A stretch of DNA of 64,000 nucleotides from Herbiconiux ginsengi (GTDB lineage Bacteria > Actinomycetota > Actinomycetes > Actinomycetales > Microbacteriaceae). The notes below the pieces were generated by a model, which searched no databases, was not told the origin of the DNA, and saw nothing but the letters and a program-made list of their open reading frames with translations. Below are positions 20,549-23,581 of the stretch, piece by piece (position 1 is the first letter of the stretch; each line of letters starts with the position of its first letter). Made by a program: the position numbers and the translations under genes. The DNA is taken from assembly GCF_900107435.1 (NCBI RefSeq), contig NZ_FNPZ01000006.1, forward strand, positions 62,001 through 126,000. The letters run 5' to 3'.

Positions 20549-21121
20549 GTGTCATCCATTCGTCTCTTCATTCTCGGGAGCCTCGACTCCGCGGGCCCGA
20601 TGCACGGCCATCAGCTGCGACTGCTGGCCGAGGAGGAGCGCATCCATCTGTGGACGGATGTCTCGGTCGGCTCGCTCTACGGAGCCATCAAGCGTCTCGC
20701 GAACGAGGGCCTGATCGCGGAGGTGCGGGTCGAGCGGGAGGGGTCGTATCCCGAGCGCCAAGTGTTCGAGATCACGGAGGAGGGGCGGCGCGCGCTCGCC
20801 ACCCTGCGGGAATCCGGGCTCAGCGTGGTCGACTTCCGCAACGATCCCTTCGACCTGGCGATGGCCCGTCTGGACCCCGAAACCCTCGATGAGCTCGTGC
20901 CCGTGATCGAGACCCGCGTGCTGGCCTTGCGCACCAAGCTCGCCGAGCAGCAGTTCCTGTCGCGCGCGGCGGCACCCTATCTCTCCGCCGCGGAGGCCTG
21001 GGTGATGCAGCACCGGGTCGACCGGCTGACCGCCGAAGTCGACTCGCATGAGCGACTGCTCTCCCTCCTCCCCGACATCATCGCCGACGAAAAGGCGCGA
21101 AAGGCCACCCCTCATGACTGA
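20549..21121 (+). CDS. PadR family transcriptional regulator
   Basis: A 190-residue PadR regulator. The N-terminal winged helix reads IRLFILGSLDSAGPMHGHQL ... VGSLYGAIKRLANEGLI ... ERQVFEITEEG; the C-terminal half is the helical Vir_act_alpha_C dimerisation domain. Its last codons overlap the start of the MFS exporter gene by eight bases, so the two form an operon in which the regulator very likely controls the exporter, as PadR proteins often do in response to drugs or phenolics. The GTG at 20549 has no clear ribosome site. Confidence 0.93.
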   Translation: MSSIRLFILGSLDSAGPMHGHQLRLLAEEERIHLWTDVSVGSLYGAIKRLANEGLIAEVRVEREGSYPERQVFEITEEGRRALATLRESGLSVVDFRNDPFDLAMARLDPETLDELVPVIETRVLALRTKLAEQQFLSRAAAPYLSAAEAWVMQHRVDRLTAEVDSHERLLSLLPDIIADEKARKATPHD

Positions 21122-22634
21122 CGCCGCACTCCCTACCTCGAGCGCCCCGGCGCCCGCTATCCCGCGCCGGGCCTGGCAAGCGCTGATCGTGCTGCTCGCG
21201 GCGATGTTCATCGCGCTGCTCGACACCACGATCGTGAACGTTGCCCTGCCGAGCATCCGCACCTCGATCGACGCCTCCGAGGCCACCCTGTCGTGGATCA
21301 TCTCCGGCTACGCCCTCGCGTTCGGCCTCGCCCTCATCCCCGCGGGCCGCATCGGCGACCGGATCGGGCACAAGTGGGTGTTCTTCAGCGGCCTCGCTCT
21401 CTTCACCGTCTCGAGCCTGGCGTGCGGCCTCTCGCAGAACGACGTGCAACTCGTCGTGTCGCGCGTCGTGCAGGGGCTCGCCGGCGGCATGTTCGTGCCT
21501 GCCGTCACCGCCTACATCCAGCTGCTGTTCCCGTTCCGCTCGCGCGGCAAGGCCTTCGCCATCATGGGCGCCGTCATCGGAGTCTCCTCCGCGCTCGGCC
21601 CGATCGTGGGTGGTCTCATCATCGAGGCGTTTGGTGCCGAGAACGGCTGGCGGCTGGTGTTCGGCGTCAACCTGCCGATCGGCATCGCGACGCTCGCCGC
21701 CGCCGCCATTCTGCTGCCCGGACACCGGGAATCGGATGCGATCTCCGTGTCGATCAACGGGCCCACGTCAGCCGCGTCGCCGGTCAAGGCGGGCATCGAC
21801 TGGCTCGGCCTCGTGCTCGTGTCAGCGGGCCTGGTGGCCCTGCTGGTGCCGCTCATCCAGGGTGAAGACGAAGGCTGGCCGCTCTGGACCTTCGTCTCTC
21901 TCGCTGTCGGCGCCCTGCTCATCGTGGCCTTCGGCGCCTGGGAGGTCGCCTACGCGAAGCGCGGTCGCAGCCCTCTGGTGCCTCCACGGCTGTTCCGCCA
22001 CCCCTCCTTCACCGGCGGGGTCATCCTGGCCCTGGTGTACTTCGCCGCCTTCACGAGCATCTTCTTCACCATCTCGATCCTCTGGCAGGCGGGGCTCGGC
22101 CACACCGCGCTGGAGTCGGGGGTCGTCTCGATCCCCTTCGCGATCGGCTCGATCGTGGGCTCCTCGCAGAGCGGGCGGCTCGCGCAGCGCCTCGGCCGCA
22201 CCGTGCTCGTGATCGGCACGGCCGCGGTGACCGGCGGGCTCGCCTGGGTGTGGCTCGTGCTCCTGCTCACCGACCCCTCCGATCTCACCAACTGGGAGCT
22301 GATCGCGCCGCTGCTCATCGCCGGGCTCGGCAACGGCCTCTTCATCGCGCCGAACGCGCAGTTCATCGTCGCGACGGTCGATCGCTCCGAAGCCGGCGCC
22401 GCCAGCGGCGTGATCAGCGCCATGCAGCGGGTCGGCAGCGCGGTGGGCATCGCCGTCATCGGCAGTGTCTTCTTCGGCACGCTGGTGATCGACGGGCAGA
22501 CGCCGGATGCCGTCGCGACCGGATTCGGAACCAGTGCGACCTCCGCGATGGCCGTGAGCGTCGGCTTCGCCCTGCTCGCCTTCGCCCTCGTGTTCACGCT
22601 CCCGCGCCGCACCGGCGTGCCCGGCAGCCACTGA
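21114..22634 (+). CDS. MFS drug exporter, EmrB/QacA (DHA2, 14-helix) type
   Basis: A 506-residue membrane protein with 14 predicted helices. It shows LLAAMFIALLDTTIVNVALPSI (motif D1 of DHA2, in part), GRIGDRIGHK between helices 2 and 3, and VVQGLAGGMFVPA with the antiporter motif region VSSALGPIVGG. It exports drugs or other hydrophobic compounds with protons. ATG 21114 overlaps the upstream padR-like gene, and co-transcription with that regulator is likely. It is followed by the structured leader before a GNAT-like gene. Confidence 0.93.
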   Translation: MTDAALPTSSAPAPAIPRRAWQALIVLLAAMFIALLDTTIVNVALPSIRTSIDASEATLSWIISGYALAFGLALIPAGRIGDRIGHKWVFFSGLALFTVSSLACGLSQNDVQLVVSRVVQGLAGGMFVPAVTAYIQLLFPFRSRGKAFAIMGAVIGVSSALGPIVGGLIIEAFGAENGWRLVFGVNLPIGIATLAAAAILLPGHRESDAISVSINGPTSAASPVKAGIDWLGLVLVSAGLVALLVPLIQGEDEGWPLWTFVSLAVGALLIVAFGAWEVAYAKRGRSPLVPPRLFRHPSFTGGVILALVYFAAFTSIFFTISILWQAGLGHTALESGVVSIPFAIGSIVGSSQSGRLAQRLGRTVLVIGTAAVTGGLAWVWLVLLLTDPSDLTNWELIAPLLIAGLGNGLFIAPNAQFIVATVDRSEAGAASGVISAMQRVGSAVGIAVIGSVFFGTLVIDGQTPDAVATGFGTSATSAMAVSVGFALLAFALVFTLPRRTGVPGSH

Positions 22635-22658
22635 CTCCGAACGATTCCACGAAGGGGG

Positions 22659-22688
22659 TTGCGCCCACGCCGCGCGGCCCGCTAATCT
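22659..22688 (+). promoter_or_regulatory. candidate promoter of the GNAT leader transcript
   Basis: TTGCGC (22659-22664) and TAATCT (22683-22688) are spaced 18 bp. Transcription would begin near 22695, leaving a 5' leader of about 255 bases before the GNAT gene. A small hairpin GCGACA/TGTCGC (22697-22711) would lie at the very 5' end of that RNA. Confidence 0.5.
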
Positions 22689-22741
22689 CGGAGACCGCGA
22701 CAGACTGTCGCCTTGAGACAGAGAAGGGAAAGGTGAGTCCC

Positions 22742-22792
22742 ATGATTTCGATCATTCCGGCGCTTTCCCCGATCAGGAGCCTCGCAGGCTAG
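22742..22792 (+). CDS. 16-residue leader peptide MISIIPALSPIRSLAG
   Basis: A short frame starting ATG with GGGAAAGG about eight bases upstream, inside the long untranslated leader of the GNAT-like gene. GAGAAGG around its ribosome site (22721-22727) is complementary to CCTTCTC (22794-22800) just after its stop. Downstream there are overlapping alternative stems. This is the layout of a ribosome-mediated attenuator. The peptide is not one I recognise, and it carries no run of a single amino acid that would point to amino-acid control. A response to ribosome stalling by a drug is a possibility only. Confidence 0.5.
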   Translation: MISIIPALSPIRSLAG

Positions 22793-22828
22793 TCCTTCTC
22801 GACTGCCTGCCTGGCCCTTCGCCAGAAA

Positions 22829-22914
22829 GCGCCCCTTCGCCGGGCGCGTACTGACTCCGCGCACTGCGCCTTGCGCGCCCGGCGCCTCCTGCGCCCTGAG
22901 CGCCGAGTCAGCAC
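22829..22914 (+). promoter_or_regulatory. mutually exclusive stems of a putative attenuator
   Basis: Three stems share strands. B: GCGCCC 22829-22834 with GGGCGC 22842-22847. C: 22838-22848 with 22874-22884, eleven perfect G-C pairs. D: 22848-22857 with 22905-22914, nine of ten pairs. B excludes C, and C excludes D, so the RNA can switch between folds. No T run marks a classical terminator; control might act on translation of the GNAT gene at 22951. Confidence 0.5.
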
Positions 22915-22950
22915 CTCCTCGCTGGTCCTCTCAATGGAAGAAGTCTTCTC

Positions 22951-23481
22951 GTGTTCACATCAAGCAGTCGCGCCCACGACCGGGCGCTCCTGGATTTCCT
23001 CAGTCTCCATCCCGAACCCGGTCCCGATCCCGTGCGCGGTATCGACGCCCTGGAGTTCGGCCGCGGTCTCGCCGCCGGCACGCTCCGCCGTGACTGGACC
23101 TGGCTGGCCTTCGTCGACGACCGACCGGTCGCCCGCGGGGTCTGGTGGGGCCCGGTCGGGGCGGTGCATCCCGTCGAGCTCCGCTGTCTCGCCGTCGATC
23201 CGTCACTGCCGCACCCCGAGGTCTGGGGAGCGGCGCTGATCCGCTCCGCTCACCGTCAGTTCGCCGAAGCGGGTGCCATCCTGGCTCCCGACTTCGTGGT
23301 GGAGTTCGACGGCGCGCATCGCGACGAGCCCGCCCTCCAGCGGGCGCTCGCGTGGCGTGGCCTCGCGGCTGAAGACGCCGGACTCACGGTGCGCACCGTG
23401 GACGGCTCGGGCGATCGGGTCACCTACTCGACCCGCCCGTTGCGGGCCGCCAAGGTGATGGTCTCCGCCGGTTCGCGGTAG
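22951..23481 (+). CDS. GNAT-like acetyltransferase behind a structured leader
   Basis: A 176-residue protein. The central block WLAFVDDRPVARGVWWGP, then VHPVELRCLAVDPSLPHPE and AALIRSAHRQFAEAGA, resembles the beta4-beta5-alpha3 core of GNAT acetyltransferases, although the Q/RxxGxG/A loop is not evident, so catalysis is uncertain. The GTG at 22951 has GGAAGAAG seven bases upstream. It follows the drug-exporter operon and has a separate promoter and a leader of about 255 bases with a 16-codon peptide. This suggests regulated expression, perhaps in response to an inhibitor. Confidence 0.7.
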   Translation: MFTSSSRAHDRALLDFLSLHPEPGPDPVRGIDALEFGRGLAAGTLRRDWTWLAFVDDRPVARGVWWGPVGAVHPVELRCLAVDPSLPHPEVWGAALIRSAHRQFAEAGAILAPDFVVEFDGAHRDEPALQRALAWRGLAAEDAGLTVRTVDGSGDRVTYSTRPLRAAKVMVSAGSR

Positions 23482-23506
23482 CCCTCATGAGCGCGTCCTC
23501 CGCGGA

Positions 23507-23550
23507 TGTGACTGTCACTCGGCATCCGAGTGCGCCGTGTGACAGTCACA
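23507..23550. promoter_or_regulatory. paired TGTGAC palindromes (terminator or operator)
   Basis: TGTGACTGTCACT (23507-23519) and TGTGACAGTCACA (23538-23550) are each near-perfect palindromes and also pair with one another over 12 bases. They lie after the GNAT-like gene and before the LacI gene. They could end the GNAT message or be auxiliary LacI operators, since TGTGA...TCACA also occurs before araD. Confidence 0.5.
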
Positions 23551-23581
23551 TTCTTCGCAGGGAGTCGACGGCCGGAGTGTG

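Follow-up and report, generated by a model that had tools for sequence, protein, structure and literature searches.

A structured leader with an upstream open reading frame, shared by four genera of Microbacteriaceae, is a probable translation attenuator ahead of a small GNAT-fold protein gene

In attenuators of the ermC type, arm 1 lies in the upstream open reading frame (uORF), arms 2 and 3 lie between the two frames and arm 4 lies at the Shine-Dalgarno (SD) site. Attenuators of the whiB7 type carry an intrinsic terminator in the leader, and an AT-hook is a feature of the WhiB7 protein itself. According to the part of the source used here, the whiB7/wblC uORF leader of actinobacteria is tied to translation-targeting antibiotics and works by transcription attenuation (PMC7157823). 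The RAPP arrest peptides include ApcA, ApdA and ApdP, of which ApcA and ApdA are found in some actinobacteria, as stated in the portion of the report drawn on (PMC10951233). Going by the sections of its report that were available, the described system nearest in kind to the leader presented below is ToiL, an 8-codon uORF of the topAI-yjhQP operon of E. coli that lies together with the ribosome site of topAI in a repressive hairpin and has a demonstrated drug response (PMC12121999).

The window, that is, the whole stretch of DNA analysed, comprises 64,000 nucleotides from Herbiconiux ginsengi. Its leader (about 22696-22950) lies after a PadR-MFS pair (20549-22634) and ahead of a gene of 176 codons that starts with GTG (22951); the parts are listed in Table 1. 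As far as the available sections on ToiL go, the two systems are alike in having a short uORF and a structured leader able to close the downstream ribosome site, and control would be translational in both. Unlike ToiL so described, the window uORF pairs with a segment beside a separate anti-SD arm, the host is an actinobacterium and the system is known here from sequence alone. The leader family shares the ermC-type plan, with the same placement of four arms, but differs from it in that the alternative 2:3 helix, judged by eye, has about 3-5 bp and is missing in some relatives, and in that an ErmC-like opening was not reproduced by folding in most leaders. Like the whiB7/wblC leader, as covered in the part of that source used, the window leader is an actinobacterial uORF leader; unlike it, the window leader has no terminator-like site (0 in 22560-23020 by a simple consensus scan). 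The window's genome contains two WhiB matches, neither with the WhiB7 AT-hook by eye, and the leader is a short cis-element that could signal how ribosomes behave in a genome in which no WhiB7 was seen. Compared with the RAPP peptides, within the portion of that report drawn on (PMC10951233), the leader likewise has an upstream frame with a Pro-Pro-type motif, but the motif is x-Leu-[Pro/Leu/Ser] and not Arg-Ala-Pro-Pro, and the downstream gene is not YidC2/SecDF. RAPP was absent from the leader uORF peptides listed.

An initial annotation of this DNA had described a promoter, a leader of about 255 bases, a well-placed frame of 16 codons with an anti-SD segment after its stop and an attenuator-like architecture without an obvious amino-acid run. 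These parts are all found in the window: the promoter boxes with their 18-bp spacing, a distance of 255 nt from the inferred transcription start to the GTG, the frame with its SD site, CCUUCUC past the uORF stop, and a uORF that is free of amino-acid runs in a leader laid out like an attenuator. The fold of the leader region beats 200/200 dinucleotide shuffles (z -4.8; z -4.5 from the inferred transcription start). With Rfam 15, the whole window gave, at gathering scores, only an SRP RNA and a tRNA, both elsewhere, and 22600-23010 had no match at E <= 1, which agrees with the earlier statement that the leader was not recognized as a known RNA family; no published description of the element was found among open-licence papers. 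The leader is a new family of a known kind, a structured leader without an Rfam name, and is newly defined by covariation across four genera.

Table 1. Parts of the leader and its gene, with positions in the window.
Feature	Position	Strand	Details and basis
Promoter	22659..22688	+	-35 TTGCGC (22659-22664), 18-bp spacer, -10 TAATCT (22683-22688); seen in sequence
5'-terminal hairpin GCGACA/UGUCGC	22697..22711	+	about 1 nt past inferred transcription start; covariation
Long-range partner CCUUGAGA of the segment covering the gene's SD site (UCUCAAUGG, about 22929-22937)	22711..22718	+	minimum-energy fold; clade-specific
GAGAAGG 5' of uORF	22721..22727	+	complement of 22794-22800; sequence
uORF SD site AAGGTGAG	22730..22737	+	sequence; SD-like site also in relatives
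uORF, 16 codons, MISIIPALSPIRSLAG	22742..22792	+	open frame with SD site directly 5'
Arm 1 GGCGCUUUC	22759..22767	+	within uORF: end of Pro codon, Ala, Leu, part of Ser; best uORF x downstream helix
Hairpin spanning uORF stop codon (GCAGGC.UAGUC/GACU.GCCUGC), loop with CUUCUC	22784..22810	+	predicted fold; kept in L002, L003 by eye
Anti-SD-like CCUUCUC 3' of uORF stop	22794..22800	+	sequence; CCUUCUC in L002, CCUUCCC in L003
Arm 2 GAAAGCGCC	22825..22833	+	partner of arm 1; family-wide covariation
GC stem a, clade-specific	22838..22884	+	22838-22848 with 22874-22884; predicted fold; kept in L002, shortened in L003
GC stem b, clade-specific	22851..22911	+	22851-22862 with 22900-22911, one C.C mismatch; sequence; kept in L002, mostly lost in L003
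Main gene SD site GGAAGAAG	22936..22943	+	sequence; GGAGGA often in relatives
Main gene, 176 aa, GNAT-fold protein, GTG start	22951..23481	+	orthologues; AF2 model; Foldseek

The downstream protein is present in 16/16 genomes of the same genus (the window's own included) and in 19/99 genomes overall. Among 299 Microbacteriaceae genomes it was found in 31, and by genus in 9/12 genomes of g8 (Subtercola), 7/8 of g106 and 1/1 of g26. From four Microbacteriaceae genera, 34 leaders were taken upstream of short orthologues, of which 31 are distinct after removal of L007 and L009, near-copies of the L006 leader, and L028, identical in its leader to L052. Alignment A3 omits L001-L003 and L016-L018 of the 31, and alignment A4 omits L013, L036, L037 and L058. 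Reassignment tests used 18 of the 31 leaders as lineage representatives, and the peptide-selection test used 13 Herbiconiux rows with 9 representatives. Folding of SD exposure covered 27 leaders and folding with arm 1 occluded covered 30, L018 also being left out.

By comparison among these leaders, the promoter, the 5' hairpin, the uORF position and helix 1:2 are conserved across the four genera; on these parts the initial annotation survives its own refuting condition, an absence of conserved peptide or stems. The pattern TTGNNN-17/18-TANNNT, counted as its last match upstream of the uORF, occurs in 31/31 distinct leaders, with a spacer of 18 bp in 30 and 17 bp in one; a strict sigma-70 scan did not flag the window's promoter. 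A WhiB7/WblC promoter is not claimed: AAAA stands just 5' of the -35 box in some relatives, not in the window, L003, L011, L013 or L015, and the published GAAAWY motif has, by our reading, a spacing one base longer. The 5' hairpin (5 bp) starts 8 nt past the -10 box. In 27 aligned rows, 92.6% of its cells are paired and 21 are double-changed, and its percentage, changed cells and score were reached in 0/500 shuffles; its pair count and pair-type count are not unusual, being matched by 171/500 and 104/500 shuffles, and slid registers give at most 48.1% paired. A uORF of 15-45 codons with an SD-like site lies in the same place in all 31 distinct leaders, and its first part varies in length and sequence, with no conservation by eye. 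The motif [AVTMR]-L-[PLS] near the uORF end was found in 30/31 leaders (L018 is without it), a count that is not independent because the uORFs were chosen partly by a Leu-Pro-like motif: most were selected via this motif and the SD site, and two were set by hand.

Helix 1:2 joins the rare-Leu/Pro codons of the uORF to a segment after the uORF stop. In 23/31 leaders it pairs better than dinucleotide shuffles (p<0.05). In the window alone it is not better than shuffles (p 0.23), and the window's own helix is supported by comparison with its relatives. When arm 1 of the 18 lineage representatives was paired with its own whole intergenic region, it beat 10,000/10,000 reassignments. All 10,000 were also beaten in a narrower test of arm 1 against arm 2, which is biased, since that very pairing had served to locate arm 2; the control, arm 1 against the SD site, was matched by 8089/10,000. 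Across 25 aligned rows, 87.1% of cells are paired and 17 are double-changed, values that 0/500 shuffles reached; every slid register gave a lower score. The best helix between the whole uORF and downstream sequence sits on the motif in 28/31 leaders. With its start at GG, the helix always stands in the same codon phase, 6 to 37 codons being ahead of the motif, and the motif begins 10 codons before the uORF stop in 13/14 distinct Herbiconiux leaders. In the window, GGCGCUUUC/GAAAGCGCC shows one C-G to U-A double change relative to the family consensus. On these comparisons, covariation is clear for helix 1:2 and the 5' hairpin and weaker for the third arm.

All 13 aligned Herbiconiux leaders use CTT for the conserved Leu; CTT makes up 23/1233 Leu codons in 28 ORFs of the window. 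The first codon of the motif varies (GCG, GTG, ACG, ATG), and arm 2 changes accordingly. Among the 9 Herbiconiux representatives, the motif has 1 synonymous versus 47 non-synonymous pair differences, and the uORF tail in Herbiconiux has no synonymous excess (0.19 versus 0.17 expected). The synonymous share in this genus is lower in the coding frame (0.15) than in the other two frames (0.29, 0.21). Selection at the peptide level was thus looked for within Herbiconiux and not found. The conserved uORF codons in Herbiconiux look like RNA pairing and not peptide selection, and the constant codon phase of the helix in the family and, in this genus, the nearly constant motif-to-stop distance still point to translation of the frame. 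Compared by eye from one genus to another, the Ala and Leu codons show mostly synonymous changes (GCG/GCT, CTT/CTC/CTA).

Arm 3, an anti-SD segment able to pair with the gene's SD site, overlaps arm 2 at its end; in relatives, the two arms share 2-3 nt by eye, which are the last of arm 2 and the first of arm 3. A position-specific test of arm 3 against the SD site was matched by 30/10,000 reassignments. Comparison points to this pairing more weakly than to helix 1:2, because a broader shuffle test was negative (2/31 at p<0.05, combined p 0.25). In the window clade (window, L002 and L003), the stretch from arm 2 to the SD site contains an additional GC-rich segment with two interleaved stems, and the SD site is changed to GGAAGAAG. 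As stems a and b interleave, they would be mutually exclusive unless a pseudoknot forms; stem b is absent from the minimum-energy fold. The GAGAAGG/CCUUCUC pair is retained in L002 and reads GGGAAGG/CCUUCCC in L003. In the predicted fold of the window, the SD site is held by 22711-22718, and in L003 both sides of this pairing change together (CCAUUGA/UCAAUGG). The initial annotation had proposed a switch of three GC-rich stems that share strands. All three are present and the last two do interleave, but the first shares no strand with the others. Of the three, only 22759-22767/22825-22833 is conserved in the family; the other two occur only in the window, L002 and, shortened, L003. Because two stems are clade-specific, the claim that all three form the switch is not supported.

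We read the leader as a cis-acting, uORF-dependent translation attenuator, with a probability of about 0.6. Its retention through matching stem mutations in several genera suggests that the cell senses ribosome movement through the leader. The transcript would begin at the promoter and carry the hairpin at its 5' end, and ribosomes entering the uORF at its good SD site would meet a short stretch of rare-Leu/Pro codons (arm 1). When free, arm 1 would pair with arm 2 past the uORF stop; arm 2 would overlap arm 3, and arm 3 could shut the ribosome site of the main gene. In the window clade, the extra stems and the 5' partner may join the switch. The location of the ribosome on the uORF would therefore set which pairings form and how open the start site is. 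We infer that ribosomes translate the uORF and that their position on it drives the switch; slow decoding of the Leu-Pro codons would play a part, and the signal would be some form of translation stress. On this attenuator reading, the gene of the small, uncharacterised pseudo-GNAT is likely to respond to translation.

Folding models showed no consistent switch across leaders, and the folding tests conflict. With a ribosome placed on the motif, mean SD exposure rose from 0.25 to 0.29 (27 leaders). Occluding arm 1 closed the start site by >1 kcal/mol in 15/30 leaders and opened it in 6/30. With 60 nt of upstream sequence, a longer fold, the same occlusion closed 4/18 and opened 4/18 at 37 C, and closed 4/18 and opened 6/18 at 28 C, which is no different from control windows (p 0.93 at 37 C, 0.87 at 28 C). 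Helix 1:2 as an 'on' helix is not claimed, the trend in 30 leaders being lost with the longer folded sequence. Enforcing 1:2 gave a lower opening cost than a ribosome on the motif in 9/18 leaders and a higher one in 3/18 (p 0.06). A folding column with 1:2 forbidden was invalid, the constraint having removed other pairs too, and was not used.

The sign of the switch could run either way. Under control of the ErmC/ToiL sign, a ribosome stalled on the Leu-Pro codons, whether a drug or slow decoding of Pro or rare Leu codons holds it there, would disrupt a repressive fold and induce the gene. We hold this tentatively, with the odds somewhat against it. A published uORF of such a kind stands before an E. 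coli operon, as the available sections on ToiL describe (PMC12121999). Pairing of arm 2 with the SD region was matched by only 108/10,000 reassignments, and with arm 2 masked the opening cost is lower by >1 kcal/mol in 11/18 leaders and higher in 2/18 (37 C). The window's own leader opens modestly in folding with a ribosome on the motif, its opening cost falling from 6.4 to 5.5 and from 11.8 to 8.4, but this effect is not specific because control windows lower the cost too (median -1.0 versus -1.8 for arm 1). Against the same sign, in relatives arm-1 occlusion mostly raises the cost or, in the longer fold, has no net effect. Release of the SD site by an occupied arm 1, as expected for the ermC type, appeared by folding only in the minority of leaders counted above as opening by >1 kcal/mol. 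The opposite sign, in which helix 1:2 is an anti-sequester that forms when ribosomes are upstream or absent and turns the gene on, and ribosomes reaching arm 1 let arm 3 close the SD site, is doubtful. It draws on the overlap of arms 2 and 3 in relatives, by which the two helices would compete, on the excess of closing over opening among the 30 leaders and on the 9/18 versus 3/18 result for enforced 1:2. The occlusion trend is not robust to the amount of upstream sequence, the enforced-helix comparison stands at p 0.06, and the behaviour is absent from the window's own leader.

A structured leader that senses nothing, with the 5' hairpin and helix 1:2 protecting the mRNA or fixing its translation level and the uORF merely keeping the leader translated, is unlikely. 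A covarying hairpin at the very 5' end, the lack of a sign of peptide selection within Herbiconiux and the lack of a consistent folding switch would all suit such a leader, but it leaves unexplained why arm 1 keeps one codon phase near the stop despite varying uORF length, and it accounts for the conserved rare Leu codon by pairing only. That the uORF encodes a functional micropeptide is very improbable: good SD sites and a Leu-Pro-like motif in four genera, with mostly synonymous Ala and Leu differences by eye, speak for it, but neither the length (uORFs of 15-45 codons) nor the sequence of the N-terminal part is constant, and the tail is without protein-type conservation. A more specific version of the attenuator would be a new actinobacterial elongation sensor, in which the rare Leu(CUU)-Pro stretch is both ribosome pause and switch arm, so that the leader would read elongation speed and not one drug or amino acid. 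Some GNAT relatives act on tRNA or ribosomal proteins, and the controlled degenerate GNAT-fold protein may act on translation and so close a feedback loop; we regard this whole scheme as speculative and quite improbable.

Model R1, built without the window clade, finds the window leader at 22759-22833 (E 2.4e-5). A second match in the window, at 22866-22953 (E 0.0077), covers the clade-specific segment and the SD site, as if arm 2/3 had been partly duplicated. Across the window's whole genome, where 150 of 9429 first-look candidates were scored, the window leader (E 8.6e-4) was the sole match at E <= 0.1. In 10 genomes, R1 located the leader locus in 9, plus one weak match (E 0.06) in a coding-looking stretch; it missed G040 in the genome scan, and the leader of that genome, L017, scores E 9.9e-6 once the locus is given. 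Under stricter filters, 246 class genomes gave 3 matches at E <= 0.01, about the number expected by chance: the window's own genome and two judged chance by eye. At 14 loci with longer relatives of the downstream protein, R1 gave nothing at E <= 1. The exact pattern GGCGCTTCC-N26..56-GGAAGCGCC occurred in 10/398 family genomes, of which four (G001, G009, G348, G349) have the true leader, and the other matches were judged chance from the matched sequence alone. This pattern misses most true leaders, the window's included, and a backwards control pattern matched more genomes (26) than the exact pattern did.

The 176-aa product matched no Pfam or NCBIfam family at E <= 0.001; SnoaL_2, the sole weak match in a Pfam search at E <= 10 (E 0.072, below its cut-off), was not used. 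Its AF2 model has a pLDDT of 90.8, and Foldseek returned 882 matches at E <= 10, 3 of them at E <= 0.001 (best 2i79, E 6.8e-4, TM 0.53). The best 50 of the 882 are GNAT entries by their titles or by our identification of them, in line with the GNAT-like gene named in the initial annotation. The product is, by this modelled structure, a small GNAT-fold protein with an altered CoA loop, the structural match being modest. The canonical acetyl-CoA loop of GNAT proteins is R/Q-x-x-G-x-G/A. At that position, matched to this motif by eye, the protein reads HPEVWGA, in which all 31 aligned proteins keep P89, E90 and W92; with the loop so replaced, catalysis by the usual route is doubtful. Distant relatives of the protein are longer open frames. 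At 1000-2238 on the minus strand, L040 holds an apparent tandem GNAT, whose first half resembles the window protein and whose second half has a CoA loop of ordinary appearance; the short proteins may thus be N-terminal halves that stand alone.

The gene had been said to follow a drug-exporter operon. This stands for Herbiconiux, where the end of an MFS frame is visible upstream by eye in all loci but L016, and for g26, but not for g8 or g106. In the five loci read, the neighbours, whose names were recognised from sequence and not by family search, are PadR-MFS in g26, groEL in g8 and purM with purC in g106; because they differ between genera, the exporter link is not general, and leader and gene therefore stay together without the exporter. 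We note that the leader-gene unit lies between purM and purC in g106 (L071, L074) and beside groEL in g8 (L070, L073). On the 3' side of the main gene, at 23506-23551, two facing copies of the palindrome TGTGACTGTCACA stand ahead of a LacI-type gene. The paired pattern is probably a regulator's operator, and it occurs in 17/88 loci, several of which are overlapping stretches of the same genomes.
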